Assembly (NCBI GenBank): GCA_034401795.1
Contig: CM067359.1
Location: 146,698,233-146,762,232 of the forward strand
Direction: 5' to 3'
Source of the DNA: Chaetoderma sp. LZ-2023a
Lineage: Eukaryota > Mollusca > Caudofoveata > Chaetodermatida > Chaetodermatidae
Length of the DNA stretch: 64,000 nt
Below the pieces are notes generated by a model that did not search any database, was not told where the DNA came from, and saw only the letters and a program-made list of their open reading frames with translations. The position numbers and the translations under genes are program-made. Position 1 is the first letter of the stretch; each line of letters starts with the position of its first letter. Shown piece by piece: positions 2,781-61,319 of this stretch.

Positions 2781-3377
2781 ATAATGTAGAGGTATATATT
2801 TGTAATTAGTTTCCTCCTCTGCTATTTACAAATATCACATTTGTTGATAGGGTATCCCTACTATTAGCTGGTACATTTCTCTTCATCCGGTAGGGGAAGA
2901 GATGAGTGCCGCTCCCAAGACATCAGAGGTCAGTATATGTGACCATTTTGTTTTTTGTCTTTGTGATGGAGTCATATTTTTTATTTTTAAGATGGTGATG
3001 GTTAATGTCTCTTAATTGTGGTTCTTTCAGGGGTTTTTTTAATTAAGCAATTCTTCTTTTTCCAATGTCTAGTAATACTTTTCATCAAGTATTAGAGAAC
3101 ATGCTAGTCATTTAGAGCAACGTTTTTTCCTAACCTTCCTCAGAAAGAGGGTGTGTGTGGGTTGGGGGGGCGGGAGCGCATTTGCTTTTTGATCGATCTC
3201 TCTTCATCGGTCGATTATCCGATGCAAAATTCTATTCCTGGTTGTGTTTTCAGATACAATTTCAGATGTTTTTAAATCTCTTGAAAATTCAAAGAGCTAG
3301 TCTCTTCGAGGGTGTGCTGGTTTTCAGGACCTTGCCTCCCTCGTGCCAAATTGACTTTCAAATTCTGGCTTTTATCA

Positions 3378-3480
3378 AGAGTGTTAGGGAGGTAAGTATG
3401 GTCTCATAATGTGAAATAAGAAAATTTACCAAATTTCTTTTGCACTAGTGAGATGACATACTTACCTACCTAACAGGATC
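3378..3480 (+). repeat. DIRS internal complementary region (ICR), copy 1
   Basis: This stretch joins a copy of the complement of the left terminus ('AGAGTGTTAGGGAGGTAAG') to a copy of the complement of the right terminus ('GACATACTTACC'). DIRS elements are thought to use such a region as the bridge for circularising the cDNA. It lies about 600 bp after the YR stop. An ICR in this position is the strongest structural proof of the DIRS assignment. Confidence 0.8.
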
Positions 3481-3539
3481 CTGCCATCTCCACCCCACGG
3501 AGGCCTGGTCCTTTGGTTATTTGAATAGTTGCTTCTATG

Positions 3540-3747
3540 TCAGCCAATATTTAGTAACGGAAGTACCAGTATGCGCATGCGCAGTAGGTGGGGTCTGTCA
3601 TGTGCATGACTTGTGTACATCCACCTGCCCATTAGGGGCACCTAATTTTTTATAATTCTGAATATTATTGAACTTAGAGCCGGTATACTAGTATATCAAG
3701 AGTGTTAGGGAGGTAAGTATGTCATCTCACTCATGAAAAAGAAATTT
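3540..3747 (+). repeat. Right inverted terminal repeat of DIRS copy 1
   Basis: The segment is the reverse complement, with few differences, of the left end of copy 3 at 57897-58110. Shared landmarks are the CCAAT box, the GCGCATGCGC palindrome, 'CCCATTAGGGGCA' and the terminal 'GTGTTAGGGAGGTAAGTATG'. A right-end match to another copy's left end is expected for ITRs. Confidence 0.85.
3572..3583. promoter_or_regulatory. NRF1-like palindrome in DIRS ITR (copy 1)
   Basis: TGCGCATGCGCA is a perfect match to the animal NRF1 consensus as I know it. A CCAAT box (CAGCCAAT) lies about 25 bp away. The same pair occurs in the ITRs of copies 2 and 3, so it is conserved sequence rather than chance. Binding and promoter function are inferred. 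Confidence 0.55.
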
Positions 3748-4424
3748 GATAAATTTTCTTAATGTCTGCTACTCGTGAACCACCTGGCCAATTTCAATTA
3801 TGTGGCGACCTTGGATTTTGGTTGATTTTTTATCCGCCATGAATCAATCGTAAATTACCGTTTTTGGCTGACATCTTGTGTTTTCTGCAAATTTCTAAGA
3901 AAACCCTAAAAAGACTACTTATTAACCACTGGGCCAATTTTAATAAAACATAGATAAACCTTCACAGAAATTAGATTGGTAAATTTTTTCAGTGGTCATC
4001 TCGCTTTGTTCGGTTGTGCCAGTGGCCAATAATTTCAGGTGAGCAATACAGGCCCCTTGGGCCTCTTGTTTGGGTGAAAATCTTAGATTTTATAACAAAT
4101 TTACCAAAATTTTCAAATTGCTTGTTTCTGTCAACTTAACTGATTTCAAGCAAATTTGGCCAAAAGGATCCTATGATCATCGGCTCTAGAACTTTCATTC
4201 AGAATTTTGATTCATCAAATTTTTTTGGTTGAAAAATCTTAGATTTTATGAAAGATCTACTGGAAATGGTCAAAATGTTACTCCTCCATATCTGTTGTGA
4301 TGATACGTTCAGACAACTCTACAGTAGTGAGTTACATGTTTGGTGGCATTCAAAATTTTATACTAAATTTAACCGAATAAATTTAATCGGAAATTGTCAA
4401 AAAGGCTTCTTGTCAACTTAACTA
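3748..4424. repeat. Intergenic repeats: Helitron-like 3' end and 'AATTTTGATT' minisatellite units
   Basis: There is no gene here. The piece 3775-4072 ends with a GC hairpin (CAGGCCCCTTGGGCCT) followed by CTTGTTT, the ending seen on many mollusc Helitron-like repeats. From about 4075 onward are diverged units of a repeat around 170-180 bp long, typified by 'CAGAATTTTGATTCATCAAA' and 'CTTAGATTTTA', which recur at 7371-7610, 11500-15300, 27700-28350 and 29560-30150. Confidence 0.6.
4296..4335 (+). repeat. 40-bp stray piece of DIRS RNase H sequence
   Basis: About 40 bases are identical to copy 1 positions 1167-1206 apart from the last few, covering the RNase H 'RSDNSTVVSY' codons. The piece sits in the middle of an unrelated repeat unit, with no DIRS sequence on either side. 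It looks like filler DNA copied during break repair or template switching. Confidence 0.75.
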
Positions 4425-11499: not shown

Positions 11500-12278
11500 A
11501 CGATAAAGGTTGGTAAAGAAAATCAGAATGGCCAAGTGAGCTTATGCCGTGGCGACCATCCATCCGTCCATCCGCCTGTCCGTCAATTTTTGTTTAAAAA
11601 CGCTACTCATTAACCGCTTGCCGGATTTCAACCTAGGTCAGAATGGCCAAATGAGCTTGTGCTTTGGCGACCGTCCATCGTCCGTCCATCCGTCAACTTT
11701 TGCTTTCAAATGCTACTCACCTGCTTGGCGGATTTCTGCCTAATTTGCCTGGAAGGACCCTATCTGGGTAGGCTTCAGAACAGGTATACAGAATTTTGGG
11801 GTGAAAATCTTAGATTTTATGAAACGGTTAAAAGGTTACTCATTAACCACTTGTCAGATTTCACTCAAACTCAGCAGAAAGCACCGTAGGCTTCAGAATT
11901 TGTATACAGAATTTTGGCTGGTAAATTTTTCCATTGGCCATTTTAACTTTTCCAGAAATCCTTTAAAATGCTAGTGTTCCTTAATCAATGACTGATTTCA
12001 ACAAAAGTTGGGTGGGATGATCCTATGGTGATCAACTTTCCAGAGTTCTCATGAGTGTTTTGATTGGTTGATTTTTTTCTGTCACGTTGGACTTTCTTAA
12101 GTTTGTTAGAAATCCTTTAAAATGCTACTCGTTAAGCAGTGGACAGATTTCAATGAAACCTGGCTGGAGTATCCTATGGCCATATGCTTCCAAACTGGTA
12201 TGTACAGGAATTTGGTTGGTTAATTTTTTCAGCGGCCATCTTGGATTTTCCAAACATTTTCCAGAAGCCTTTAAATCG

Positions 12279-12349
<71 letters not shown>

Positions 12350-13510
12350 GCTGAATATCGAACAAGCTTGGGCGGAATGACCCTATCACTATAGGCTATA
12401 AGAAATCAAATGAGAATTTTGATTGGTCAATTTTTAACCCACCTGGCCGAGGCCATGTGTGCTTATGCCATGGCAGCCGGCCGTCGTTTGTTCATCCATC
12501 GTCTTTTCATCCATCCGTCCGTCCGTCAAATTGCTTCTCCTTAATGGGTTGACAGATTTCAACCAAATTTGCCTGGACGGATCCTATGCTGGTACCCTCC
12601 AGATGTTTTTTCTGAATTTTAATTGGTGAAAATCTGAGATTTTATGAAATATTTACCAAGAATTTTCAAAATGCTACTCTTCCTTGGCTACTTGACATAT
12701 TTCAACCAAATTTGGCTAGACTGATTCAATGGTGGTAGCCTCTAGAATATCGTTTGAGAATTTTGATTGACCCATTTTTTGGGTGAAAATCTTAGATATT
12801 ATGAAAAGTTTACTGGAAATTGTCAAAACGCTACTCCTCATTAACCGCTTGGTGGATTTCAACCTAGTTTGGCTGGAACGACCCTTTGGGTGTAGCTTTC
12901 AGAAAATATATACAGAATTTTGATTGGTCAAATTTTGCTGAAATTTTTTTAATTTTATGAAAATTTCCCAGAAATTTTCAAAATGCTACTTCACATTAGC
13001 TTCTTGATGGATGTCACCTTAATTTAGCTAGAGTGACCCTATGGGGCTAGGCTTCAGTACATATATACAGAATTTTGATTGGTCAATTTTTTCAGCAGCC
13101 ATGGAATTTTATGAAGAAAATGGCAGGAAATCGTTTAAATTGCTGCTCCTCATTAACTGCTTGGGTGATTTCAGGGCTATGGTGCCATGCTTCAGAACAT
13201 GTATACAGAATTCGGATTGGTAAATATTTTCCGGTGGCCATCTTGGATTTTCCCAAAGTTTTGGTGAATCCGTTAAAAGGCTACTCATTAACCAGTTGTC
13301 CGATTTCAGTAAAACTCAGCAGGAAGCACCATAGCCTTCAGAACTTGTATACAGAATTTTGGTTGGTAAATTTTTCCGTTGACCATCTTAAGTTTTCCAG
13401 AAATTCTTTGAAATGCTGCTCCTTAAGCAGTGGGACAGATTTCAGTGAAACCTGGTTGGAAGGATTCTATGGTCTTATGCTTCCAAACTTGTATACAGGA
13501 ATTTGATTGG
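11500..13510. repeat. Tandem array of 'AATTTTGATTGGT' units (Helitron-like cores)
   Basis: About ten diverged units of 150-190 bp follow one another ('CTACTC.TTAACC.CTTG', 'GATTTCAACC', 'GATCCTATG', 'CAGAATTTTGATTGGT', 'CTTAGATTTTATG'). Starts of the type 'CCAAGTGAGCTTATGCC' plus runs of CCATCCGTCC occur near 11533, 11638 and 12450, so several elements are stacked. No ORF has a recognisable product. Confidence 0.7.
12279..12351 (+). repeat. (CTA)n microsatellite
   Basis: About 24 uninterrupted CTA triplets lie inside a repeat unit at a place where the related unit at 15026-15076 also carries (CTA)n. The apparent poly-Leu/poly-Tyr ORFs are artefacts. Confidence 0.97.
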
Positions 13511-13514
13511 TTAA

Positions 13515-14580
13515 TTATGGTCCCCGAAAAAAAATTTGCGGGGAGCATATAGTCGCCGCTTTGTCCGTCCGGCCGGCTGTCCATTCGTTTACCATATATA
13601 AGTTTGTCCGGGGCATAGTTTCAAGACTTTTTCAGATATGATCACCAAACTTGGTATGTGGATGCATCTTAGGGAGAAGGTGTGCAGAGTATTAAAAGGA
13701 GGTCAGAAGTAGGTCATGCTGACCTACTTTTCATGGTCGACTGAATATCACAGAAAATGTTTGTCCGGGGCATAGGTTCAAGACTTTTTCACATATGGTC
13801 ACCAAACTTGGCATGTGGATGCATCTTAGGGAGAAGGTGTGCGGAGTATGAAAAGTAGGTCAAAAGTATGTCATGCTGACCTACTTTTCATGGTCGACTG
13901 AATATCACAGAAAATGTTTGTCCGGGGCATAGTTTCAAGGCTTTTTCACATATGGTCACCAAACTTGGTATGTGGATGCATCTTTGGGAGAAGGTGTGCG
14001 GAGTGTGAAAAGTAGGTCATGCTGACTGACCTACTTTTCATGGTCGACTAAATATCATCGAAAATGTTTGTCCAGGGCATAGTTTCAAGACTTGCACATG
14101 TACTCACAAAACTTGGTATGTGGATGCATCTTAAGGACAAGGTGTGCAGAGTAGAAAAGTAGGTCAAAGGTAGGTCATGCTGACCTACTTTTCATGGTTG
14201 ACTAAATATCACAGAAAATGTTTGTCCGGGCCATAGTTTCAAGACTTCTGCACATATGCTCACCAAACTTAGTATGTGGATGCATCCTAGCGAGGTGTGC
14301 CGAGTATGAAAAGTAGGTCAAATGTAGGTCATGCTGACTTACTTTTCATGGTTGACTGAATATCACAGAAAATGTTTGTCCGGGCCATAGTTTCAAGACT
14401 TTTTCACATATGATCACCAAACTTGGTATGTGGATGCATCTTCAGGAGAAGGTGTGCACAGTATGAAAAGTATGTCATGCTGACCTACCTTTCATGATCG
14501 ACTGAATATCACAAAATGTTTCTCGGGCCATAGTTTCAAGACTTTTTCACATATGGTCACCAAACTTGGTATTGATTCTT
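13515..14580 (+). mobile_element. Helitron-like element with seven 154-bp tandem units
   Basis: It starts with a hairpin (GGTCCCCG, A/T loop, CGGGGAGC) and a CCGTCCGGCC run. Seven units then start at about 13602, 13759, 13916, 14066, 14220, 14374 and 14518. Each has 'TTTGTCCGGG', 'CATAGTTTCAAGAC', 'CACCAAACTTGGTATGTGG', 'GGTGTGC' and an inner palindrome 'GTAGGTCATGCTGACCTAC'. No ORF is present. The overall form matches non-autonomous Helitron-like repeats of molluscs. Confidence 0.7.
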
Positions 14581-15020
14581 ACAGAAAATATCTCTGTTCA
14601 TTTTGAACATAGTTTTTATATGTATTTTTCATATGGTGCCAAGCAAAGTCTAAGTGTGTTTATTTAGAGAAACTTAGATTTTGCTTTTAGTAAGCTATCC
14701 TTAACAAATTGTTCATTAGGGCAAATCCCGCCAGACCAAAAGAATCATTCCTACTCCCCAAATTGTGGATTTAACATCATTACCCCAAACCAACAATATT
14801 TTGAGGATGGCCTAATATGGTGATATCTCATTGACAATTTCAAGTTCGTTTTCTCTGTGTCTGAGCCACAGTTCCAAACCTTTCCCTGAAGCATATGCCT
14901 TCGGGGTTATCCGTTCAGTTTCTCTGCAGAGTATGCCTTCGGGGAGCACACATCAATTTATTGATTTGCCTTGTTTTTTCAGCTGCCATCTTGGATTTTC
15001 CAAACATCTTCCAGAAGCCT
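14581..15020. other. No gene recognised
   Basis: The segment between two repeat arrays contains no recognised ORF or repeat apart from short local copies of 'GTATGCCTTCGGGG'. Confidence 0.5.
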
Positions 15021-15025
15021 TTAAA

Positions 15026-15026
15026 T

Positions 15027-15075
<49 letters not shown>

Positions 15076-15076
15076 G
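15026..15076 (+). repeat. (CTA)n microsatellite within a repeat unit
   Basis: About 17 CTA triplets sit at the homologous position of the 12279-12351 run; flanks on both sides match ('CCAGAAGCCTTTAAAT' before, 'AACAAGCTTGGG' after). Confidence 0.95.
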
Positions 15077-15637
15077 CTGTTGGGTATCAAACAAGCTTGG
15101 GTGGAATGACCCTATCACGATAGACTATAAGAAATCAAATGAGAATTTTGATTGGTCAATTTTTAGCCCACCTGTCCTAAAAGGCCGAGTGAGCTTATGC
15201 CATGGCGGCCGGCCATCATCTGTTCATCCGTCCATCCATTAAATTGCTTTTCCTTAACGGTTTGACCAATTTCAACCAAATTAGGCTAGCAGATTTTGGA
15301 GAAGCTGGGGAAAAAATTGCAGTGTTATCGAAATCAACGTTTTTTTGCTCCCCTATGGTCATATTATCACAGAAAAAAAGTCCTGACCAATATCCCTTGG
15401 GCAAAATTTTTCACGGTACATTGAAATTTTGGCGCTTTTTGCATTCTTGGAAACCCTAATTTTTTTGTGTAGTCAAAGGCAAGTCCTTTTTTCTGACAGT
15501 GTGTCTAGGATTACAGCACTGAAACTATATTTATCGGGTGTACCATATTCGCTTAGTCTGTCAATGATTCCTTTAGTTGTAGTCATGGTAACGTGAGAAA
15601 AAAAACAAGATGGCTGCGCGGATTATGGATAAATATT
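15077..15637. repeat. Further 'AATTTTGATTGGT' unit, then unannotated DNA
   Basis: To about 15290 the sequence repeats the 12350-12570 unit, including 'GTGAGCTTATGCCATGGC'. From 15300 to 15637 nothing is recognised. Confidence 0.55.
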
Positions 15638-16209
15638 ACTTTTGTCAGCAGCCATTCATTTGTCGCATACTTGCGATCAGAAACCCTACTAAAATGAATG
15701 AAATGGATAAAAAAATACCGAGTAAATAATTTCTATCAAGAATTTTAAAGACATATATTTCTTTAGGTGAATGCGGTATATTTTAAACAACGAGAACTGA
15801 GGATTCTGACAGATGTAAAAATCATTGACAAAGGATTATCCAAGAAGCACATCTTGTCTGCTATCTTTGCCCGTACACTAATCAAAATCTTGTTCATCAT
15901 CATCGCCAACATCTTCACATCCGACTTTTGTCAGCAGCCATTCATTTGTCGCATACTTGCTATCAGAAACCCTACTAAAATGAATGAAATGGATAAAAAA
16001 ATACCGAGTAAATAATTTCTATCAAGAATTTTAAAGACATATATTTCTTTAGGTGAATGCGGTATATTTTAAACAACGAGAACTGAGGATTCTGACAGAT
16101 GTAAAAATCATTGACAAAGGATTATCCAAGAAGCACATCTTGTCTGCTATCTTTGCCCGTACACTAATCAAAATCTTGTTCATCATCATCGCCAACATCT
16201 TCACATCCA
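15638..16209. repeat. 286-bp direct tandem duplication
   Basis: Units 15638-15923 and 15924-16209 are head-to-tail copies with, as far as I can see, one base difference in the middle (GCGATCAG against GCTATCAG) and one at the end. The duplicated unit carries the last codons and stop of the PIN-like pseudogene on the - strand. Either very recent or an assembly artefact. Confidence 0.9.
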
Positions 16210-18302
16210 GAAGGAACAACATTGTTGCTACACGTTTCTCCATGGCAACCACCACATGGAGCGACACAGTGTAATCCTGATTTGTCGCATGAACATTGCC
16301 TTGTTCCACATTGGGTTTTATTAGTAATTTTACAATTACTACGAATAAATTTCAGAACATTTGCAGGTGCAGCAGCGATATCTGTCATGACTGGGCGCGT
16401 AACCTTGGTTTCCAACTTCCAGCCCCATTCATACGGATTAAGGCACTTGTTATCTAGTTCAGCCCATTGGACAATTTGCAGATGAACACGGAGACTGGTA
16501 ATGAGCCGCTCGATCAGTTGGTGGAAGTCTCTCAGGCTCAATTTTATTACACCTTGCAATCATTGCTTGATAACGCATGTGTCTCAAGGATGTCAGTGAT
16601 TCAAAATCTTTCCCCTCCATAAAGGATACAGAAAACAGATATACCTGCATTACCGACGTCTTGGGGTGTCGGCTCAGTATCAGCCATTTCATAAGCTAGT
16701 AACTGTAGTTTGCTCTGTTTACACAAGACTTTCATTGCACGAGTTTTTCCTTGTCCAAAGGTAGATGAAGTTGTATCGCAACCACTCCATGCATGGATGA
16801 ACAGTATGTTGTCGTGCAATACTGGATTCATCACTTCATGTGCTTCGTGGAGGCTGTACATCTGCACAGTTTTATTCAGTCCATTTGTTTTTTTCTCGTT
16901 TACTAGAAATATATCAGCCATGTATGTTTTCCAGTGGTGAATTAGCATAATAAAAATGTGTGTGTCTTCCGCTACAACCATTACTGATTGACCGCTTTTC
17001 GAAAAGTCCAGAGCAGTTGATACAATCAAGGTGTCTGCATCACCATCAATACACTTAACGATATAATCCTTAGATTGTAAGAATATAACAAGAAGCTGTA
17101 TGAACTGTGTCTTATTCCTCATGTTGGAGAAAAATGCCTCTTGATTTTTGTGACACTTTGATATATCTGTGACAGTGATATCCGCGGACATTGTTCCAGA
17201 GCGCCTCAGATGTTCGTGGTCTTTTGTGGATGGTCTTTCGTATTCATCGAATACAACACAGCACTTTCCATATTTATTGCTGAGAAAGGTTTCATATTGT
17301 TCGACAATTTCTTGATACGTGACATTGTTTTTCCATCTAATATGATGGAGCAGCCAACCACCATCTATTACTGACATGGTATCTTTCGTAACATTAGTCA
17401 GTTCATGGCTGACATTGTGGAGCTCTTTCTTGATATCCCTGGCTAATTCTGATTTATCTGATTTTCGCATGAAATAGTTTTTGAACAGCGATGTAGGTAT
17501 GGAAGAAAGTTCATACTTAAAATAAGGTGTGACGTCTTCAGATTCTCGTTTTGCCAGTGCCGTACATCGCAAGAATAAAACACTCGGCTCAATCTGGATA
17601 GTTTTTTTCCCGACCTTGATACCGGGCTGGAGGTCATTCAATGTACGAACTTGTTGAGATCGTTTAATGTGAGCATTACTAAAGGCCACATCATCAAGTG
17701 ATTGCTGGATCTTCAAACCCACTTGTTCAGCCATGTCACAATTAATTCCATGATCATCAGATACCGTTAGCCAAGTTGCCAATGACCTTAGCGTGGACAT
17801 CTCGTTATCGAATGGGTTGTGCTGTTCAAACCAATCTAGAATCCTCTCCATGTCTACAAAATCTCGCTTGCACCTAGATTTAGCGAGTTCCGCATGTTGT
17901 TCACTTGTTGCATTTTGACGATTTGTTAAGCTGGTCATTGCCTCATGAACAGCTGCACAGTGATGCATGCTAAAGATCCATTGATTCCTAACGCTTTCAG
18001 ATATGCCACGACCATGTGTCAGACCTCCTCGAGCTTTCATTGATCGGATAAGAATCTGCTCTATGCATAGATCGGTCCATAATCCAGCCCAGCGCTTATC
18101 ACTCCTACAAACTGCATGGTGACCTGTAGAGAATTTATTGTACAACCATGGCTGTTTGATTGGGAGATCTCTCATCATTTGCAGGTAAAGTCTAGCACTT
18201 TTTACATAATTAATATACCCTGACGCCGCGAAAAGATTCAACAGCTTTCTAACAGCTGCAAGACTCTTTCGCAATGTATGAACTCTCTAATGATGCTTAG
18301 CA
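16164..18302 (-). pseudogene. C-terminal half of a PIN-like (FEN1/XPG-like) nuclease-family gene, broken
   Basis: The largest ORF (16601-18274, 557 aa) opens with 'LLNLFAASGYINYVKSARLY', passes 'RSDKRWAGLWTDL' and 'EQILIRSMKARGGLTHGRG', and then shows a string of acidic motifs in the order of FEN/XPG nucleases: VFDEYERP (Asp 343), IDGDADTL (Asp 410, 412, 414), VVAEDTHIFIML (436-444) and WSGCDTTSSTFGQGK (Asp 500). Frameshifts near 16605 and 16500 lead into the rest: 'HLQIVQWAELDNKCLNP' and a Cys-rich tail (QCGTRQCSCDKSGLHCVAPC). I recall many unnamed multicopy proteins with this layout in cnidarians and molluscs; the nuclease role is inferred. The third motif has His where relatives have Asp, so this copy may be dead even without the frameshifts. 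The N-terminal half is at 25156-27016. Confidence 0.72.
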
Positions 18303-18574
18303 AGATTCAAGATTCAATATTATTTATTTGCTTCTTGGATACCAATTTACATACTTTCAATACAGGTTGTCCGCCGAAGGCATTGCCTATAGTGGTGGCG
18401 GACACCTAACATTAAACATACATAGACAATTATACACACAGCATAGCATAGAATGTGAGACATACTTGTGAATGTACAGATACGGTACTGAGCTAAGTAG
18501 ACATAGAAAAAAGAACAAACGATACAATACATCTATGTTTTTCCTTTTAGTTATTGAGATTAGAGATTTATATT

Positions 18575-18625
18575 TGGAGGGGGTGGGGTGGGGGGTGGGG
18601 TGGGGGAGAGGAAGGGGGATGGGGG
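18575..18625 (+). repeat. G-rich simple sequence
   Basis: The GGGGTGGGGTGGGGGGTGGGG-type run lies within the LINE 3' region. It has G-quadruplex potential and no coding. Confidence 0.85.
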
Positions 18626-18736
18626 TCATGCATGCTAATTACCCCAGCTCAACCCATAGGGTGCTATTTAGTAGTAGCACTTGTTGAAGTGCGTCAGGAA
18701 GCAGTAGTCACGATAGCTGTAATAGTGCATTATGGT

Positions 18737-18822
<86 letters not shown>

Positions 18823-18829
18823 GGTGGTG
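18737..18829 (+). repeat. (GTA)n(GTG)n microsatellite
   Basis: About 25 GTA triplets followed by GTG triplets. On the - strand this is (TAC)n, giving a false poly-Tyr ORF. Confidence 0.97.
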
Positions 18830-19166
18830 GGTGGTTGTTATGATAGTAGCTATGGCAATGATACAGGAGTGTGTCATCTTAGTTATCTTGGCATTGTGTT
18901 TTCCAGATCTAGTATGTATTGAGTATGCTAGTTTTAATTATGTCTTTGTATGATTTTAGTGTTAGTATTTTTTCGCGTGTGTGTTTATCTATACTATTCC
19001 ATGCTTTGATGACACCAACTGAAATTCTACGTTTCCCTGTGTCTGTTCGTGTGTATCTAATGCGGAGATCATGCTTGTTCCTAGTGTTATATGTGTGGAT
19101 TTCGATGTTGTTCGATGTTATGTAGTACAGATACAAAATCCAATACTTGGCTGTACGTGACTCGCT

Positions 19167-19253
19167 TTCCAATTTTGCCTTGTGTTTAATAATACATAGA
19201 TCTAATGCTACCAGTTCTTCCGAATCGGAAATCTCATTGATTGGTATACATTC

Positions 19254-19313
<60 letters not shown>

Positions 19314-19400
19314 GAATGTATACCAATCAATGAGATTTCCGATTCGGAAGAACTGGTAGCATTAGATCTATGTATTATTAAACACAAGGCAAAATTGGAA
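19167..19400. repeat. Perfect 88-bp palindrome with a (TA)n centre
   Basis: Left arm 19167-19256 and right arm 19311-19400 are exact reverse complements (start TTCCAATTTTGCC, inner end ATACATTCGTC), separated by a pure (TA)n run. In the - direction the left arm continues the LINE reading frame, so the right arm is an inverted copy of LINE coding sequence. A long hairpin or cruciform is expected. Confidence 0.93.
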
Positions 19401-19405
19401 TATAT

Positions 19406-19453
<48 letters not shown>
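19401..19453 (+). repeat. (GATA)n microsatellite
   Basis: About 12 TAGA/GATA units immediately follow the palindrome. Confidence 0.95.
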
Positions 19454-19454
<1 letters not shown>

Positions 19455-19680
19455 CTGGACTGACTCAAATTGGAGAATATTTGAGAAACAAAATAAAATG
19501 TATTTATTTCTTGATGTAAACAGGTATGAATCATACACAATGCGAAAGAGTACACAGTAATTAATTTTCTAGTAAATATATAACATATATGTGTGGGTAA
19601 GCACTAAAGTTTACATGTAGCACAGTAGCACTGGATAAATCACCAACTTTCAGCCAAAAACTGCTTCTACAGTGGGTTGA

Positions 19681-19813
19681 GAAATGTCCATTTGCAGACC
19701 GAGAGAAGACTATTTTTGAAAATTTACCACTGGAATGGCTGGCTTGATAACTGAGCGAGTCATTCCAGTGGTAAATTTTCCCAAATATTTCTTCTCTTGA
19801 TCTGAAAATGGAT
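19681..19813. repeat. Palindromic element family 'A', copy 2
   Basis: The arms GAAATGTCCATTTGCAGACC and its complement are separated by 'GGCTTGATAACTGAGCG'. It lies just outside the 3' end of the hAT transposase gene. Confidence 0.85.
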
Positions 19814-19849
19814 ATTAAATTTACTTGAACAAAGTTACGTGTTACAGGG

Positions 19850-22557
19850 TTAATAATGGCTCAAATTGCATGATAGAAATGACAATTGGTTGACACGATC
19901 TGGCTTAAGGCACGCTCTCTTTGGCGTTACTATCTGTCCAGATTTACTAAACAAGCGTTCGGATGGGCAACTTGATGCCGTTACACACAGATATTTCCGA
20001 GCCAATTTTGCTGGGTTTGGGAAGCTTTTCTCATGTAGCTTCCACCAATTTAAGACATTTGAGTCCTCATCAGGCTCAAAACTGCCGAGGTAAGAGTAAA
20101 TCTCGTTCTCGATCGGACTTGACTTGCTTGAGCTCACATCAATGGATTTTGCTTTACTGAATAGGCTTGATAGAGTTTTCTTTGTAGGTGTCGTTTGGTC
20201 AGGAGTTGTTTTCACAAGATCAATAGGCGAGTCTGTCTGGTCCACAATACGTTTCTTTACATCACTAACATCACATTCAGAGAGGTATTTACACTTGAAT
20301 TTTGGGTCTAGGAAGCTACTCATTGACAGAAGGGTGCTTATACTATCACCTTGACTATTATATCTGTTTTCCATATCACCCTTTATTACATCTTTGATGT
20401 GGGATGTTAGAGAATGTTGGTCCTTCGATGTTTCTATGATTTCTGTAGCCAACAACTTTACCAGTGGTTTTATCGCAGAAACACTAACATACTGTTCTTG
20501 TGACAGAATGTCTGTAAAGTCACCCACCGTCTCCAAAGCAGCTGAAACGGCTTCGAGAACCTGGGTGTCCTGCCAAGATAGAGCAAGATGTGCCGTCTCT
20601 GTCATTGCTCAGGACGCGACGTAGTGCAGGCTCCTGTTCTACAATCATTTTAACCATGGCGAATTTGGAACCCCATCGAGTCTGGCAACCCTATAATAGA
20701 AATAAAGATTTAGAAGATATTTATAACGTAAGTGCTCGCAGCATTGCAGCAGTTAAGTTAAGCAAATGACATTTTGTATATTTTGAAATAAATCTGAATG
20801 GCAGGAGCTTCTCCCCCTAAAGGCAGAAACAGCATTCAATCACAATCATTTCAACATATCCAACAGCATCAAACAGCAATCAATCCATTTTATCGCATTT
20901 AACAATTCTGGGTTCAATGGGTTAGGCGGACACAATCTAGATTTACTCTTGCCAACATAAAGGCGGCCGTGGTAGTGAATGCAGATATTAGGTCAAACAT
21001 CTCATCTAACGTTGGTCTATAAATTGATTAAAAAACCATGCCAAATTAGAGGCGCTTAATTAATGAGTATAGTTCACAGGTCTACAAATGATTTTCTTAG
21101 CATACTGTTCGGCGGCTCGTCTCATCTAAGACTGGCGGACATATAATACCATTTAACACTCATGTCAGCCAAATACGGCGTTAGACTACTGTAGTCTTGA
21201 GAAGGGTATATTTTCCAACCAAGCGAAGACTATATTTAAAAATTTACCACTGGAATGACTGCCTCGATAACTGAGCCAGTCATTCCAGTGGTAAATTTTC
21301 AAATATAATCTTCGCTTGGTCGGTAAATTTGCATTGTTTGTGAGAAAATATAAATTTTCTTGAACAAATTTAATGCTTAATCCTTTAGTGATGATACCTG
21401 CCAAAACTGGCCTCTTTAGTGGTCTAGAGGACTGCCCATTTGCAGGCCAAGAGAAGGCTATTTTTTTTTAATTTACCACTGGAATGACTGGCCAGTCATT
21501 CCAGTGGTAAATTTTCAAAAATAGTCTCTTGGCCTGCAAATGGACATTCAAAAAGCAAATATTTAAATTGTCAGGAAATAATTTAGGCACTAAAGAGTTA
21601 AAAGAGTGGCATAAATTATCTTACCGTAATCAGCTGATGCTGTGGAAGTTTCCAGCTCGTCGAGAATGTGGATACAATTATCCGACAGCGTCCTAACGCA
21701 CGGGTTATCCTCTGATCAGTGAGCGATTTGTTTATCGCCAGGTGCAGGTTATGTCCAACACAACTTAAATTACTCCATTCTAAGTCATGCAGTGCCTTCT
21801 TTATATTAGCACCATTGTCATGCTAACAAGTTTGCTCGAGTCTAAACCCCAGTTAGCTAAGCAGTCTCAAGGTCTCACCAATATTGTCGGCAGTATGATA
21901 ATCAGGGAAATAGAGTGTTTCTAGAATTCGGGATTGTAATTTCCAGTCAGCATCTACGAAATGAATGGTTAGTCCCAAATATGGAACCATTCCCTCTGAT
22001 GACCAGAGGTCACACGTACATGAGTAATAATCCGCAGTTTTGACATCTGTCAACACACGATCGTGAATTTCATTATGTAACTCCGGAATGGCGGTTTCTG
22101 TGAAATATTTATGCCCAGGTAACTGATACCGGCTATCAAACTGAGCGATCATTCCCTTGAAATGACTTGTCAGTTGTATAAATAGGCACCATAGCCCCGG
22201 CAATATACTTAATTACACCTTTGGTTAACTGTCAGAAACGGGTGCTTGATTTTTCGTACAACTGCCCTTTCTGTAGTGTCTGTGTTATCTTAGGCTGCTT
22301 TGCCGGCCGATCACTACTTTCACCTGCGCTGTCATCTCGTTTACGCTTGGTTGGCTGTAACTGCGAATACGCTAACGGATGGTGTTTACTACGGTGAAAC
22401 CTCAGATTTGACATATTCCCACCACTAGCTGACACAGTTACACGGCACAATTTTCAAGTTGGTTTCATCTCATCAACTGCTTTACCATTTTCATCTGACA
22501 CAAACCCATAGTGAGCCCATATCGGCGATGTCGCTTTCGCCTTTGGAATTAACTCCA
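19850..22557 (-). pseudogene. hAT superfamily (ZBED-like) transposase, two exons, broken
   Basis: The gene starts with MELIPKAKATSPIWAHYGF at 22557 and shows a BED-type finger: the first Cys codon is now TGA (about 22453), followed by K-L-C and 'GGNMSNLRFHRSKHH'. The catalytic part has 'YSCTCDLWSSEGMVPYLGL' and, after a frameshift near 21840, 'HDNGANIKKALHDLEWSNL'. An intron (donor GTAAGA near 21631, acceptor TATTATAG near 20693) leads to exon 2, which has a frameshift near 20600 and then the dimerisation domain 'YLCVTASSCPSERLFSKSG'. The lesions make it inactive. It inserted within, or alongside other insertions within, the split PIN-like gene. TIRs and target duplications were not identified. 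Confidence 0.85.
21199..21547. repeat. Two adjacent family 'A' palindromic elements inside the hAT intron
   Basis: Copies at 21199-21335 and 21429-21547 each fold on themselves around 'GGCTCAGTTATC'-type or shortened centres. Both lie in the intron of the hAT gene, so they arrived after it, or in a relative before it spread. Confidence 0.85.
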
Positions 22558-23073
22558 TTTTACGGCCTAACCAGTAACGAAACACTATCACGAACTTGTA
22601 CAAAAACTTATAATTGATAAAAGCAATACGTAGTAATCAAGAACAATTTGAAATTGATAACAACTAAAAAAATCTTCCATCTATTATACTTAACTCAAGG
22701 AGGTTATGGGCTCGCTGTTTAGCTAAGTGTGATTATTATTAATCCGTATATAATACGCTGGCTAACTGACATTGTTTATACACAATGAACTGTATATCGC
22801 CATGTCGGCGTACGATCACTGAACCCACTAAAACGACCATTCGTTTCGGCACGGAAAATAATCAATTCACCGAGATCAAAGGTCAATAGCTTGCCGACGT
22901 CATTACATAAAGAATGTTCAATAATAAGAAGACAAATTCTTCTCAATTTGATTGGCTAATTTCCGGCATATGACCGTACGGACCAATGAGAAAACGAGAC
23001 TGGAATTAGCAGAGGGAAGTGCAAGAACACTACTTCTTGCAAATGGCCGACGGAGGAAAATATGTTTATGCAT
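22558..23073. other. No gene recognised
   Basis: Between the hAT start and the Tc1-bearing palindrome, no ORF or repeat was recognised; this may be hAT 5' sequence including its unrecognised end. Confidence 0.4.
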
Positions 23074-23127
23074 CACAGGCATTTGAAGTTTACCCGCCTA
23101 TTTCATATTATTAGCATATTTCATATA

Positions 23128-23129
<2 letters not shown>

Positions 23130-23182
<53 letters not shown>

Positions 23183-23196
23183 CACTTATTATAGTG

Positions 23197-23285
<89 letters not shown>
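23130..23285 (+). repeat. (TA)n microsatellite
   Basis: Nearly pure TA for about 150 bp. The poly-Ile-Tyr ORFs on both strands are artefacts. Confidence 0.97.
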
Positions 23286-23288
<3 letters not shown>

Positions 23289-24944
23289 CTGTGCAAAAGT
23301 TAAGCACCACCCTATTTTTACGCACATGCGAGGATATATTCATGTGCTATGAAGAAAGCAATAGCATAAACATTTATGTACCCATCCATCTTAGTGCAAG
23401 AGGTAATAATGCAACTAGAGGAATGCTGATTATGATGGTGGGGAAACACTGTATGTTTTTGTTTGAACTTGAAAACGAGGCCTGAATATGGTTACGTTGA
23501 CACAACTGACAACTATTGCCCTACAGTTGACACACGTGGCTAGATTGTCATTAATGGTGTCTGAAAACGAAGTTTAACATCTGTGCACGAGTTTGAGACT
23601 GTCATTATTAATACCGGGTATATCCACCTTGTGCCTGGATGACGGCCTGGACACGACGTCTCATGCTGGTCACCAACCGACTGATACGCCATTGTGGTAT
23701 TCGTTGGCATTCAAGATGGAGTGCGTCTGTTAATTCCTGTAGGTTCTGCACAGGAGGATCCCCCCTTCTCACCATGTTTCCCAGAATGTCCCAGATATGC
23801 TCAATAGGGTTCATGTCAGGGCTCCTTGCTGGCCATGGTAGGGTTTCGATGGCATTCTGGCGGAGGTATTCATGCACAGCTCTAGCACGATGTGGTCGGG
23901 CGTTGTCATCCATGAATATAGGGTGGGTTCCAGGTGCATGATTTACGAAATCAGGGACCACAACTCTATCCAGTATGGAATCTTGATATCTTTGTCCATT
24001 TAGTGTTCCAGGTACAGTCAACAGATCCAGCTTACAATCAAATGAGATGCACCCCCATATCATAACGGAACCTCCACCAAATGGAACTTCTTCCATGATG
24101 TTACGTTGGTCGTACGCCATGCGTCTGGACCTCCATACACGAGTTCGACCATCTGTGGCATGAAGCAGGAACCGACTTTCATCGGACCAGTGTACCCGTC
24201 TCCAGGATCTCATGTTCCAGTGTCTTCTTTCGTTGCACCACCTCAGACGCTCCTCTTTGTGGTGTGCAGTGAGGAGAGGACGTCTGACAGGTCTCCTAGC
24301 TTTCATGCCAGCAGCATACAGTCTCCTTTTGACGGTAGACATTGACACTCTATTGCGCGTTTCCCATTGCTGGCTGAGCACTCTGCTGTTGGTGAATGGA
24401 GATCTCCTAACAAGGCGTACTAGGGCTCGATCATCACGGCAGTAGTCTTCTTCGGTCTTCCAGATCTAGGCCTGTCCTTCACCTCGTTAGTTTGCCCATG
24501 TTTTGCAATCAAACGACTGATTACAGTATGGTTAATGTTCAGCTGTCTGCCAATCTCTCTGCAGGACATACCACCAGTGGTATGCATGCCTATGATTTGC
24601 CATTTCACACGATCACTTAACCTTCGTCTTGCCATAGCGGTTCACAATCGAGAGCTAATTCTCTCTGTACAAATAAACCACGGTCATGAACACAAAATTC
24701 CTAATCTTGTCGCCTAAATCTGTATGTAATGTTCTACACCTCAAACTGGACTTTTACATAACTGAACACGTGTGCTGTTTCCCGCCACGCGCGGACATCA
24801 AGCGGCGTGAAGTCATGCATGCATGTGCATTTCGTACTTGGAATTATGTCAGCTAACGCGGGGACAAAAAGTATGGCAGCCTAGTTGTACCATCATGTTT
24901 CTACGTTCTATTGTTTTTGCTGGTGCTTAACTTTTGCACAGGTG
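23286..24944 (-). mobile_element. Tc1-like DNA transposon, 1.66 kb
   Basis: The terminal inverted repeats CACCTGTGCAAAAGTTAAGC (23286) and its complement (ending 24944) match perfectly over 24 bp. TA-containing sequence lies outside both. One transposase gene is inside on the - strand. The length and TIR type fit Tc1 elements of IS630/Tc1/mariner. Confidence 0.92.
23608..24635 (-). pseudogene. Tc1 transposase with one frameshift
   Basis: The N-terminal piece (24420-24635) begins MARRRLSDRVKWQIIGMH and carries the helix-turn-helix 'MSCREIGRQLNINHTVISR'. The reading then shifts frame near 24435-24445 and stops. The remainder (23608 to about 24440) is open and has the catalytic triad: HWSDESRF, FMDDNARPHRA and NPIEHIWD, with 34 residues between the second Asp and the Glu (DD34E). 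The enzyme would cut and paste the element at TA sites. Apart from the single frameshift the gene looks complete, so the insertion is fairly young. Confidence 0.92.
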
Positions 24945-25006
24945 TATAGTAGTATATGAAATATGCTAATAATATGAAATAGGCGGGTAAACTTCAAATG
25001 CCTGTG

Positions 25007-25156
25007 TATACATTGATGCTTTTAATGCCAGCCCCGGGTTTGTATTTGTACGAAAAAAACGAAAATTTGACAATATTTATTTCTCCTAGGCGGTTTTTAA
25101 ACCGTCTGTATGATATCGGTTTTTAATATGGTATCGGTATATCGCGCAGCCCTATC
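25007..25156. repeat. Repeat end at the junction with the PIN-like gene
   Basis: 'GGTATATCGCGCAGCCCT' at about 25139-25156 is the same kind of end as at 6695-6712. On the - strand the gene frame passes KLED into this repeat and then stops. It marks the edge of the insertion that split the gene. Confidence 0.6.
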
Positions 25157-27016
25157 TTCCAGTTTGATTACTTGATTGGTTGTTAATCTATCTGGCTGTT
25201 GTATACATACAGAATTGGATAGTTCAGCATCTACAGGTAATAGATCAGAAATCAGCTTTGTCATAAGCACTTTTTCAACAAGAAAATGTGCATGTAAAGC
25301 CCTGGAAATTGTTTTTCCCGCCAAAATCTGATTAATGGTGTTTGGTCCATACACCTGCCCCATGGCTTCTTCAAGACCCGACCCTTTCATCACATTGCCA
25401 ATACTACCACATGCACTCATTAGAAGATGGAATCCACCAAGTTGACAAACCAACCGGTTGAGATCTTTTGCTTTAATAATTTCAACTGCTTTCTGCCAGT
25501 GGCTGGGCAAATGTGATTGATGCACAGTTTGCTTGACTGATCGTGAATGTATAAAAGCGTAGAGTACAGACAAGTCTCATCATTTGGGTTGAGGTTGATG
25601 AATGGAAGAATAAGTACTTGCCATTTCTCAGTACCATCATCAAGGGGCTTGTAGAAGTGCTGCATGAATCCAGAATAATTTGGCATTGGTCTACTCAATT
25701 CATTAAACACACGTGCTGATTGCCACAGCAGGTTGGCATAATATGATGCTGGTGGCATGATATAGGGTCGTTGGGGTTCCAGTATTGGTTTGAACTTTAG
25801 GGAGGAAAGTGATGTTAACATTGGCCCTACATATTGAACGATTGGTATCCTCTTGTCACCCACTAGTTCAGACACTGCCAATTTTACCATGCGTCTAACA
25901 TGCTGATCACAGTTTCTTCGGTATCCTTTTACAGCCGACATTGATATTGTACCCATACCATGAAACTGGTTGCCACCATAAAGTGTTCGGACATCATGGT
26001 CAGCATTATCCGAGGCCCACCGTGTGATTTCTGCATCGCTATTTGGTGACAATGTGCCGAGATTTTCCTCTTGTAAAATAGATTTCTTAAACAAAGTTAA
26101 TTCATCATATGAGATGGAAAATCCCAATCTGAACAACTCGTCTATCAGCCACCTTGAACCAAATACCCTCATTGCTACTCGGATAACATTCTTTTGAGTA
26201 CTCTCGCTGATGTATCTCATCTTTCAGTAGTTTAGCACACGTAGCAACTATTCTTTCAGTTTCTAGTTTGACATTTTCTCTCTTTTCGTAGTGCCATTTC
26301 TCATGTACTATGTAACTAGCCATATCATGGAAACATAATACATTGTAAACTTCTTCACCACTGGATATCTCTATCATCTTCTCGTATATTTCCGTATAGT
26401 CATTTTTTCTGACACCCCCTCATCATCCAATATTTCCGTGATAGTCATTTTTTCTGACACCCCCTCATCATCCAGCCAATGGCAAAGTGCTTCAAACCAG
26501 TTTTGCTTCTTTGAATCGGTTGGCCGACCGACTGGTACATTAGTAGTGTTCGCAAAACAGAAGAAATCTGTATAACATTTGCAATGATATTGGGCTGATT
26601 ATGCAACTAAATCTATGCAGTCATTTACTCTTAACATAATTTGATGAGCCCAGGTGTCATTTCATTTCATGCACTGATTCAAGACAGATTGTCTGAATGC
26701 AAGCAAAGTAACCTTTGACACTGAGTCTTTGCCTGGATGTTTACTGTCAAAGACTGCTGTTTTCCCACAAAAAGCAACCGCCCGTCCGGTCAAAAGGCTC
26801 CGTACTTGATCTTAATCTTTTTGATGTTGTTGCACCACTGTCACTATCTGTTCTACTTCTTCTCAGGTCAGCTTCTGGATCCCTAGTATAATCAGCCCGG
26901 CATCTCTTATAAACCTTTCGTTTATCATCTCCCATAACCTCCCGACAAACAACACAATTCCCCTCAGATAAGATACCCGGCATGGGAATGCAATTTTCAT
27001 CTAATTGATAACTCAT
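25156..27016 (-). pseudogene. N-terminal half of the PIN-like nuclease-family gene, broken
   Basis: Pieces in three frames follow in order: 26747-27016 (MSYQLDENCIPMPG, then NCVVCREVMGDDKRKVYKRC), degraded 26400-26800 (YHCKCYTDFFCF), 26105-26377, 25420-26220 (DELFRLGFSISYDEL, then SDNADHDVRTLYGGNQFHG) and 25156-25573 (LVCQLGGFHLLMSACGSIG, then GSGLEEAMGQVYGPN and ISRALHAHFLVEKVLM). I recognise these as the N-terminal landmarks of the same unnamed family whose C-terminal half lies at 16164-18302 in the same orientation. Frameshifts occur near 26800, 26215 and 25560, and stops lie near 26660 and 26600. The role of this half is unknown; the Cys/His residues near the start may bind zinc. About 60-70 residues expected between the halves were not found. 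Confidence 0.68.
26392..26475. repeat. Short direct duplication (about 45 bp)
   Basis: 'AGTCATTTTTTCTGACACCC' with flanks occurs twice in tandem inside the N-terminal half of the PIN-like pseudogene. Confidence 0.85.
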
Positions 27017-27690
27017 TGTTGAATGTATTAAAAACCCAATAGGAATTCAAGCATAGCACGTGTTCACAACCACGATATGATAGTGAATAAGTATATTAGG
27101 TAACTTTATTTCAACTTGATACACGCAAAAGTCATAATTGTCTTTTGATTTACATTAATTGCCAGTTTCTAAAGTTATCCTGGACCATGTATTATTATTA
27201 CAAATGATTAATTCTACGCGTAATCTGACCACAGACCGCGCTAAGTTGACTATATTTGTAAACGATGTATTGTCCTGAACAAATTTATTCGCTAACTTTC
27301 TTATTATAACGCAAAATATATTGATAGCAAAAAAGATAGTTATATTTTCATAAATACTGTGAATTGGCCTCTATATTGGTGATCATCAAAGAATTCTCCA
27401 AGGTTATTTTTGATATAGTTCAACAATTATTATTTTACATGATAGGGTATTGTATCTTCGAAATGTATGCCAATTTTCAGCACTCTAATCGTACGGAAAT
27501 GTCAGAAATTTGAATTTGCCCCCATGCACCCTATAATAAGGCACTGCAAGAAATTTGAAAGTAGGAAGATTTCAAAGTGGTGTAAAAATTTCCGCCCAAG
27601 ATATTGGCCAGGACTTTTTCTGGGATCTAGAGATAGTGAAGATCAAAAATGAGCAGGAATTGATAACATTGGAATTTTTTTTCCAGGTCG
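27017..27690. other. No gene recognised
   Basis: AT-rich sequence upstream of the start of the PIN-like pseudogene, so it could hold that gene's promoter, but no element could be pinned down. Repeat units resume at about 27700. Confidence 0.4.
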
Positions 27691-27699
27691 CCCAAAAAT

Positions 27700-28355
27700 G
27701 GGCTTATTCTACTAGTCTAAATTGGGCAGGAAGGATCCTATGCTGGTATCCTCCAGATGTTTTTTTCTGAATTTTAATTGGTGAAAATCAGATTTTATGA
27801 AAAATTTACCGTAAATTGTCAAAATGCTACTCTTCCTTAGCTACTTGACATATTTCAACCAAATTTGGCTAGACTCGTTCTATGGTGGTAGGTTCTAGAA
27901 CTATATTTCAACCAAATTTGACTAGACTGATTCTATGGTGGTAGGTTCTAGAACTTTTATTCAGAATTTTGATTAATCATTTTTTGGGGTGACAATCTTG
28001 GATTTTAGGAAAAATTTACCGGAAATGGTCAAAATGCTACTCCTCCATAGTTCCTTGACATAGTTCAACCAAATTTGGCTAGATGGATTCAATAGTTGTG
28101 GGCCCTAGAATATTTTTTCAGAATTTTGATTGATCCATTTTTTGGGTGAAAATCTTAGATTTTATTTTTAAAAATCTACCGGAAATTTTCAAACTGCTAC
28201 TCCTCAGCTACTAGACATATTCCAACCAAATCTGACAAGAAGCATTGTATGGTGGTAGGCTCTAGATCCTCCATTCAGAATTTTGATTGATCAATTTTTT
28301 GGGTTAAAATCTTAGATTTTATGAAAAATTTACCAGAAATTGTCAAAATGCTTGA
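27700..28355. repeat. Array of 'AATTTTGATT' units
   Basis: About four diverged units of roughly 130-180 bp ('ATTTCAACCAAATTTGGCTAG', 'GGTGGTAGG', 'TCTAGAAC', 'CTTAGATTTTATG') of the same family as 11500-13510. Confidence 0.7.
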
Positions 28356-28639
28356 TATAACAAATATTTTGTTGAATATTGTGAACGTAAATGGATTTGG
28401 ATTTTGCTTACGCCAGCAAAGTCTTCCAATCCAATTACATGTATGTTCAAAATATTCAACAAAATATTCAACAGTACCTTTTATTTTGTTATGGAAACAT
28501 GTTCCATTATTTCTGAGCTATACTGAATTGTGATTACTAATTGAGAAAACAAAATTGCAGTCTATTCATTCAAAGATATGCACAATTTTTTATTCATTTC
28601 CTTCATTCATTGAACATTTATGAAACTTGGTAATTACAG

Positions 28640-28823
28640 ATATTGCGAAACCATTCTGTTTGGCTGACACACCGTCGTGAATGGGTGGGCGTTGAACAAA
28701 ATCCTGTGATTGCTGATAATCCACAACTTCAGCGTATGTTTGAAGACAAGCCTCAAGTTCACTTCCTGTCTCCAGACCTTCTACAGATTGGTTCAGCTGC
28801 ACGAAATCAACGAGCAGCAAGAG
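28640..28823 (+). CDS. Host gene exon B, NO VEIN/sacsin-like protein
   Basis: Acceptor TAATTACAG and donor GTAAAG bound 61 codons plus one base (phase 0 to 1). The peptide opens ILRNHSVWLTHRREWVGV and continues with NPVIADNPQLQRMF. A segment of the form 'LRNHxVW...W' then a statement of residues leading to 'IADNxxLxxxF' fits the family region I have in mind, though this is recollection, not an alignment. It joins to exon C in frame. Confidence 0.72.
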
Positions 28824-29069
28824 GTAAAGAGCAATAAGGGTAAAGGGTTGGGTCAGTACAAAGTACTGACTACAGTACGAAGTGACCTGAGTCAAAATTT
28901 TAACAGCGGACAGTGTGACCAGGAGGATCCCACAGCTTTGGTCGTGGTCTAAAAAATCAGGAAAATCCTAGAAGAAATCATTACAATGTCACAAAAATGG
29001 GAATTTTCGAGTCTGTCATGTCTGTAATCTCTAATTTGTAATGAAGTATTTCAGTGTTAGCTATGCCCC

Positions 29070-29460
29070 TGCCAATTTTCAGCCCAGCTCCACCCACATT
29101 TTGCCTGTAGTTTGATTGATCAATCCCTGTACTCTCTGAATCTCAATTTCCAGAAAACTATATGTGTAAACTGTTGAATATTTTAAAACTAATTTGACTT
29201 GGTGATAGGCAGCATCAGCGACCGGTCAAATTAGTTTCAAAATATTTAACAACATGCTTATTAAATAGTAAAGCCATACAATTCGTACAACCTGGCGGAC
29301 TATTAAGCGTTTAAGACGGGCTAAATCGAGTCAGTCATGATGCAATTGATTATGACCTCATCCTACACATCACGTAGTTGATTTTGTCGTCGTATGATTA
29401 ACTGAGAAACCCCCATTGCTCTTGTTTGTTGATAGATCTAAATCCTGACAATATATATCA
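29070..29460. repeat. Dispersed repeat containing palindromic element 'B'
   Basis: 'CAGCTCCACCCACA', 'GATTGATCAATC' and 'GTAAACTGTTGAATATTTT' match 8064-8175. Inside, 29155-29260 folds on itself (AAACTAATTTGACT against GTCAAATTAGTTTC). Other 'B' palindromes lie at 33920-34022 and (part) 34605-34640. Confidence 0.7.
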
Positions 29461-29466
29461 TTTTTA

Positions 29467-30252
29467 ACTCACCTGGCCCTTCAGGCCAAGTGAGCTTATG
29501 CCGTGGCATCTGTCCGGCATCCGTAAACTTTTGCTTTAAAATACTACGCCTCCTTAACATGACTCCAGAACTTCCATTCAGAATTTTGATCCACCAATTT
29601 TTTGGGTTAAAATTTAGATTTTATTAGAACTTTACCGGAAATTGTCAAATTGCTTGTTCTTACTGTTTTGAGGAATTTCAACAAAATTTGTCTGAAATGA
29701 ATATGATGATATGCTCTAGAAGTTTTGATTCATCAAATTTTTGGGTGAAAATCTTAGATTTTATGAAAAATTTACCAGAAATACTCCTTAACAGCTTGAC
29801 CGATTTCAACCAGATTGGGTTAAAACAATTATTTAATGGTAAGCTCTGGAAGCTCCATTCAGAATTTTGATTGGTCTACTTTTTAGATGAAAAATTGAAC
29901 AGAATTGTCAAATTGCTTCTTACCATTTTGACCGATTGCAACCAAATTTGGCTGAAAGGATCCTATGGTTATCGGCTCTAGAACTAGATTTGTCAATTTT
30001 TGGGGGTGAAAATCTTAGATTTTATTACATATTTACCGGAAGTTGTCAAATTACTTCTTAATATTTTGACCAATTCCAACCAAATTTGGCTGAACGAATG
30101 ATAGGCTCTAGATCTTCCATTCAGAATTTTGCTTTGCCAATTTTCTGAAACCATTTAAAATGCTACTCCTTAATCGCTGGCCCAATTTACCATCTTACGG
30201 TGGTAGGCTTTAATGGTCCAGATGAGCGTCACAGGCCCCTGGGCCTCATGTC
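29467..30252 (+). mobile_element. Helitron-like non-autonomous element, both ends visible
   Basis: It starts AACTCACCTGGCC with the hairpin TGGCCCTTCAGGCCA, then GTGAGCTTATGCC. Three or more 'AATTTTGATT' minisatellite units follow, and it ends with the hairpin AGGCCCCTGGGCCT followed by CATGTC. It is the clearest full example here of the family whose pieces fill 3775-4072, 11500-15290 and 55040-56480. It is non-coding and intronic to the host gene. Confidence 0.65.
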
Positions 30253-61270: not shown

Positions 61271-61319
61271 AGTCTTGCAATGGCTTTCGCACGGATACAG
61301 TCCAGAATGGATGAGGTCC

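Follow-up and report, generated by a model that had tools for sequence, protein, structure and literature searches.

Two gene pieces on the minus strand of a 64,000-nucleotide stretch of the Chaetoderma sp. LZ-2023a genome (contig CM067359.1, positions 146,698,233 to 146,762,232; hereafter the window) raise the question of what kind of gene they derive from. An earlier note on this DNA had assigned them, in order, to the N- and C-terminal parts of one split, multicopy protein family with FEN1/XPG-like acidic motifs and a cysteine-rich tail. The open reading frames (ORFs) and the motif positions agree with that orientation and order, and the split-family assignment holds as well: because the pieces are collinear with other copies in the same genome and lie between shared ends with a 3-bp duplication, they belong to one element. 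The two pieces are parts of a single DNA transposon copy, now dead. We consider it likely that the element was once an autonomous DNA transposon of the cut-and-paste kind and has since decayed, the AcademX lineage of Academ being the most likely affiliation.

Ends common to other copies, together with the mapped segments, place the whole transposon copy, later inserts included, at 15282–27719 on the minus strand. It has inverted ends, beginning with TAGACTAG and finishing with CTAGCCTA, as other copies do. The left terminus (TAGACTAGTAGAATAA, 27704–27719, minus strand) was defined by end comparison, its 34-base left end also being counted genome-wide, and the right terminus (15282–15297, minus strand), ending GCTAGCCTA, repeats the first 8 bases of the left end in inverted orientation, one base being mismatched. 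Comparison of the flanks revealed a target-site duplication, ATT (AAT on the plus strand), directly outside the left end (27720–27722) and the right end (15279–15281). Among 21 copies inspected, the window copy included, both ends were read in 13, and 10 of these carry an exact 3-bp duplication, i.e. 6 of 9 in subfamily 1, to which the window copy belongs, and all 4 in subfamily 2. The duplicated triplets are of mixed sequence (att, tag, ctg, gtt, tat, gag, tgt, cta, ata and att). When the window flanks were joined after removal of one copy of the duplication, they matched an uninterrupted repeat unit at 12512–12624 (88% over 114 columns) with no gap at the junction, indicating an empty site; weaker matches occur elsewhere in the surrounding tandem repeats. 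Tandem arrays with units of about 155–157 bp lie on both sides of the transposon (about 12000–15300 and 27715–30200 in the window) and constitute the insertion target.

The C-terminal ORF of the window copy, P0001, has at least 91 coding matches in the 2.44-Gb assembly, with identities of 57 to 100%, a count that is a lower bound and in which some places appear as two pieces. Counted from the match rows, 73 of the 91 contain an internal stop codon. Twenty matching places, taken with their flanks and aligned, form two groups with 84–91% and 63–71% protein identity to the window copy. Left ends, counted with up to 3 mismatches for the 34-base probe, number 76 for subfamily 1 (34-base probe) and 70 for subfamily 2 (30-base probe), and the reversed probes used as controls found 0 matches genome-wide. 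The multicopy nature of the family is therefore confirmed by coding matches and left ends alike, and its mobility, previously only surmised, is borne out by the common ends, the 3-bp target duplications, the empty site and the copy number.

Selection was estimated from the ratio of nonsynonymous to synonymous substitution rates (dN/dS, NG86) in a selected sample of 8 copies of subfamily 1 and 5 of subfamily 2. For the C-terminal half, the ratio was 0.12–0.20 between subfamilies, with 0.10–0.16 in the nuclease-like region, and 0.41–1.23 within subfamily 1 and 0.65–1.86 within subfamily 2; for the N-terminal half it was 0.16–0.39 between subfamilies (five copies against three, with three query pieces). 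These ratios are rough, because the synonymous distances between subfamilies are about 0.7–1.9, near saturation. The pattern fits a coding transposon, with purifying selection while the element is mobile and near-neutral decay after landing. The same data bear on a multicopy host or defence gene family, a reading suggested by the number of copies and the putative nuclease. For these copies we reject it as hardly credible because of the shared inverted ends, the target duplications and the near-neutral decay within subfamilies, to which the empty site and the frequent stop codons add, although no search was aimed at a separate, domesticated single-copy gene; nothing was seen in favour of the defence role that the earlier note had entertained.

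The transposon appears to encode one protein in which a transposase of the cut-and-paste type is combined with a FEN1-like nuclease and a tail rich in cysteine. In the window, all parts of it are on the minus strand. The N-terminal piece starts with an ATG at 27016 and extends, frameshifted, to about 25155; its first section (26600–27016), frameshifted and internally shortened in comparison with other copies, carries CxxC motifs that may bind zinc, judging by the motif only. The putative DDE transposase follows in two pieces, one at 25423–26220 with the first Asp motif, DNADHD, at about 26008–26010, and another in a different frame at 25155–25576 with the motifs GGFH and GSGLEE. The C-terminal half corresponds to P0001 (16604–18283, 560 aa), comprising the region that precedes the nuclease-like domain and then the domain itself, with IDGG at about 17368, FDE at 17251, DGDADT at 17047–17030 (residues 413–418), EDTH at 16969–16958 (residues 439–442) and SGCDTT at 16786–16769 (residues 500–505). 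At the C-terminal end, the predicted cysteine-rich tail was recovered as eight cysteines in a CXC-like arrangement within 16164–16559, read from the sequence in a frame different from that of P0001; the Pfam TCR (CXC) model reached only E 0.27 on this tail, in 2 of 13 members.

Most aligned rows retain the motifs of DDE type, namely DNADHD, FDQPLW, GGFH and GSGLEE, with 46 residues between the second Asp (D2) and the Glu (E). With the first queries, the first Asp (D1) was found in 8 of 9 rows, D2 in 12 of 15 and E in 14 of 16, and with the second queries in 8 of 10, 14 of 14 and 17 of 17, respectively. The putative transposase core is linked to the C-terminal domain and to the region in front of it because frames in single copies span them: L028 has the D1 region, D2 and E all in one frame (3083–3925), L035 and L029 each have a frame extending from D2 beyond E toward the nuclease-like domain, and in L034 a frame leads from directly after E into that domain.

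The C-terminal domain is a putative FEN1/XPG-type PIN nuclease, as suggested by an ordered-motif test and by conservation in a second family. A search pattern built on the FEN1 acids, with the Lys and Arg that follow, matched 61 of 66 FEN1 sequences (the host protein and 65 of 80 archaeal loci, the other 15 being excluded for short ORFs). Of the 25 distinct transposon copies 9 were matched, whereas none of 150,000 shuffled sequences made from each of two copies was; the window copy fails the pattern because EDTH replaces EDTD. The initial, stricter version matched 1 of the 66 FEN1 sequences and 9 of the 25 copies, with no match among 200,000 shuffles for each of two copies, and after its relaxation in three places the same 9 copies were matched. 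Because the pattern was composed with knowledge of the family and loosened once, the test is supportive and not blind. Across the retrieved loci, the relaxed pattern matched 78 of 152 ORFs of at least 250 aa, of which 73 are automatically labelled FEN1, one lies in L116 (itself among the 80 archaeal loci) and four are transposon ORFs from three distinct copies.

The seven acids occur in the same order and at approximately the same spacing in the transposon domain (39/67/2/25/2/61) as in the host FEN1 (52/72/2/19/2/52), and the Lys and Arg after the second Asp and the G.G.K-like end of the last motif are common to both. The transposon domain differs from FEN1/XPG 5' nucleases in the first interval (39 residues compared with 52), in the absence of significant profile similarity described below, and in its position, since it follows a putative transposase within a mobile element. 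The host FEN1 (L041, 119–1258, minus strand) is one open frame of 380 residues, and its coding part seems intronless because this frame is continuous; when genome contigs were scanned with this protein as query, no match resulted.

A distant relative of the gene lies downstream of a copy of this family (family 1) in L032, and D2 and E of the DDE-like motifs recur there. The C-terminal part of this second family (L122) and four further copies (L123–L126) carry HEEADSR-like, LDSD and SGCDS-like motifs, and the cysteine tail of L122 resembles that of family 1. A 144-residue query from L122 has at least 150 matches in the genome (150 of 2,800 candidates scored, with some places appearing twice). 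In a MAFFT alignment of the two families, in which family 2 is represented by four of its five copies, the majority residue is shared in 78 of 267 columns (29%). The seven sites of the FEN1-like acids are all acidic in the two families, a property that only 19 of the 267 columns have (hypergeometric P 2.8e-9), and 7 of 9 catalytic-equivalent positions are identical (P 0.003), P values that serve as a guide only, because the sites were chosen by eye before counting. One family-2 copy contains a 20-bp inverted repeat (AATTATGACGTCACAAACAT) with the two repeats about 5.4 kb apart, which are candidate termini.

To which group of transposons does such an element belong? An XPG-type nuclease and a Cys8 zinc finger are features of Academ. 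Target duplications are 3 or 4 bp in AcademX and 9 or 10 bp in AcademH, a difference seemingly tied to the encoded nuclease or helicase (PMC10045372, which credits the AcademX lineage to Kojima 2020), and Academ is counted among the DDD/E transposase superfamilies (PMC9587614). The 3-bp duplications found here fall within the AcademX range, inverted ends and dispersed copies are seen here as well, and the nuclease encoded by AcademX may have its counterpart, by motif, in the nuclease-like domain. Curated bivalve Academ elements, whose amplification is described as specific to bivalves, have a mean length of 5,565 bp (PMC10294476), close to the 5,757 bp of the uninterrupted copy L024 as obtained from alignment coordinates. 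If the Academ assignment is right, the family is most likely a new one of an already known transposon group, and the suggestion that it has no assigned biology does not hold, since nuclease-encoding Academ transposons are already in print (PMC10045372). Among the titles and abstract openings in the literature searched, none pointed to an experiment addressing the nuclease of such an element.

Kolobok elements have TTAA as their target, and identity with Kolobok was rejected in view of the mixed 3-bp duplications observed here. Kolobok elements carry accessory nucleases or a helicase. The two resemble each other in that a DDD/E transposase, here a putative one, is combined with an accessory nuclease, and they differ in that the Kolobok nucleases are lambda-exonuclease-like, DEDDh or His-Me finger enzymes (PMC9587614).

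Several results weigh against an AcademX element with a DDE core and a FEN1-like nuclease. In three of the 13 copies whose two ends were read, the duplication is not exact, with 2 of 3 bases in agreement. The lineage assignment is based on published descriptions of duplication length, nuclease and size. In the one family-2 copy examined, the candidate inverted repeat is a different one, and no 3-bp duplication was found beside it. Further, PMC3627910 gives the additional Academ protein as a RecQ helicase and not as a nuclease, a report that fits the helicase lineage of Academ and not the present element. An affiliation by description and a deviating family-2 copy would also be expected if the same domains belonged to a DNA transposon outside Academ, that is, to a separate superfamily also carrying a FEN1-like nuclease. 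We regard this as unlikely, since duplication length, putative nuclease and size all agree with the reports on AcademX and bivalve Academ (PMC10045372, PMC10294476), and we retain the AcademX assignment.

The other opposing points concern the protein. None of the five window pieces tried matched Pfam above the cut-offs, and searches of the family against Pfam, PHROGs and PDB sequences gave no supported match, the best hmmsearch result among PDB sequences being annexin A4 (E 0.29), judged to be chance. The PIN relative NYN_YacP appeared below the Pfam cut-off in 1 of 13 members (E 0.073), and four scans of viral contigs for relatives were unproductive. With hhalign, alignment of the family (40 rows, 25 distinct) to the 66-sequence FEN1 alignment gave a probability of 0.5–0.7%, which is not significant, and scores as good came from 7 of 100 profiles with shuffled columns and 6 of 100 with shuffled blocks; addition of family 2 gave 0.5–1.0%, again not significant. 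AlphaFold, given the window sequence alone, produced a poor model of the nuclease-like region (mean pLDDT 39.3, pTM 0.31). Thus, of the FEN1/XPG-like nuclease in the earlier note, the order of the acidic motifs stands, whereas the PIN/FEN1 fold did not emerge from profile comparison or modelling. These profile and model results would suit a C-terminal domain that resembles FEN1 in motifs only, with a structural or DNA-binding role and no nuclease activity. Such a domain would have to have acquired its acids in FEN1 order and at near-FEN1 spacing, with seven sites acidic in two families and a low dN/dS between subfamilies in this very region, and we consider it rather improbable.

The putative DDE core, in turn, is recognized by its motifs alone, which would also allow the PIN-like domain itself to be the transposase and the DDE-like motifs to have arisen by chance. 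The motifs are positionally conserved in most aligned copies, D2 and E recur in the distant family, and Academ is classed as DDD/E (PMC9587614), all of which argues against a PIN-like transposase and makes it very improbable. We therefore keep the DDE core as the putative transposase and the C-terminal domain as the putative nuclease.

On these premises, the reaction can be outlined, its observed outcome being the inverted ends and the 3-bp duplications. One polypeptide of about 1,450 residues would contain the N-terminal zinc modules, the DDE core, the PIN nuclease and the Cys8 tail. The RNase-H-type DDE core would cut at the inverted ends and insert them into the target at positions staggered by 3 bp. 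DNA binding would fall to the Cys8 tail and the N-terminal modules. The FEN1-like nuclease might cut the non-transferred 5' strands or trim 5' flaps at the junctions, a step that we propose only tentatively. The same caution applies to the broader notion of a FEN1-type PIN nuclease fused to a DDE transposase in one polypeptide and acting as a second-strand or flap nuclease, for which we see a reasonable chance, albeit short of even. Within that notion, the layout of a nuclease fused to a transposase would be shared by two or more distant families in the genome.

The window copy itself is damaged in both putative catalytic centres and was then struck by further insertions. Its second DDE-like motif (FDQPL) is unreadable, and one FEN1-like Asp is replaced by His (EDTH), the residue being Asp in the other 24 of 25 distinct copies. 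The surviving segments of the element are 27719–25155, 19257–19119 and 18299–15282. Insert A (19258–25154), where about 21 bp of the element are gone, contains a Tc1/mariner-type ORF (23611–24465, minus strand, 285 aa; Pfam HTH_Tnp_Tc3_2, E 1.6e-17, and DDE_3, E 4.1e-11) and a hAT-type ORF that represents the C-terminal part of a transposase (19853–20608, minus strand, 252 aa; Pfam Dimer_Tnp_hAT, E 3.1e-20). Insert B (18300–19118) has a repeated TTGAATC at the end adjoining the element. Between the inserts lies a 139-bp remnant of the element (19119–19257, minus strand) that is 95–98% identical to L025, L028 and L034. The 3' part of the element carries a 285-bp tandem duplication (15638–16208, minus strand, consisting of 15638–15922 and 15924–16208), which is single in L021, L022, L024, L026 and L028. 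A perfect palindrome of 234 bp at 19167–19400, formed by two 117-bp arms without a spacer and centred on a TA repeat, overlaps the remnant; a fold-back duplication may have produced it, or it may be an artefact of assembly.

Elsewhere in the window, three retrotransposon-like stretches on the plus strand (1–2780, 39480–43709 and 59201–63778) look DIRS-like. Reverse transcriptase was identified in them by Pfam at 41902–42489 and 61491–61886, and for the recombinase-like ORFs tried, at 2088–2777 and 63134–63775, Pfam gave no match at E 0.01.

A repeated, unannotated protein family is hereby explained as transposon debris, and other such copies likely remain listed as uncharacterised genes, because no model in the Pfam copy used recognises the family. 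Precise ends, duplications and residues are now available for probing a FEN1-like nuclease within a cut-and-paste transposon. In Tn7, TnsA and TnsB are separate proteins; if the proposed fusion is true, a single protein would do the work that is split between these two.

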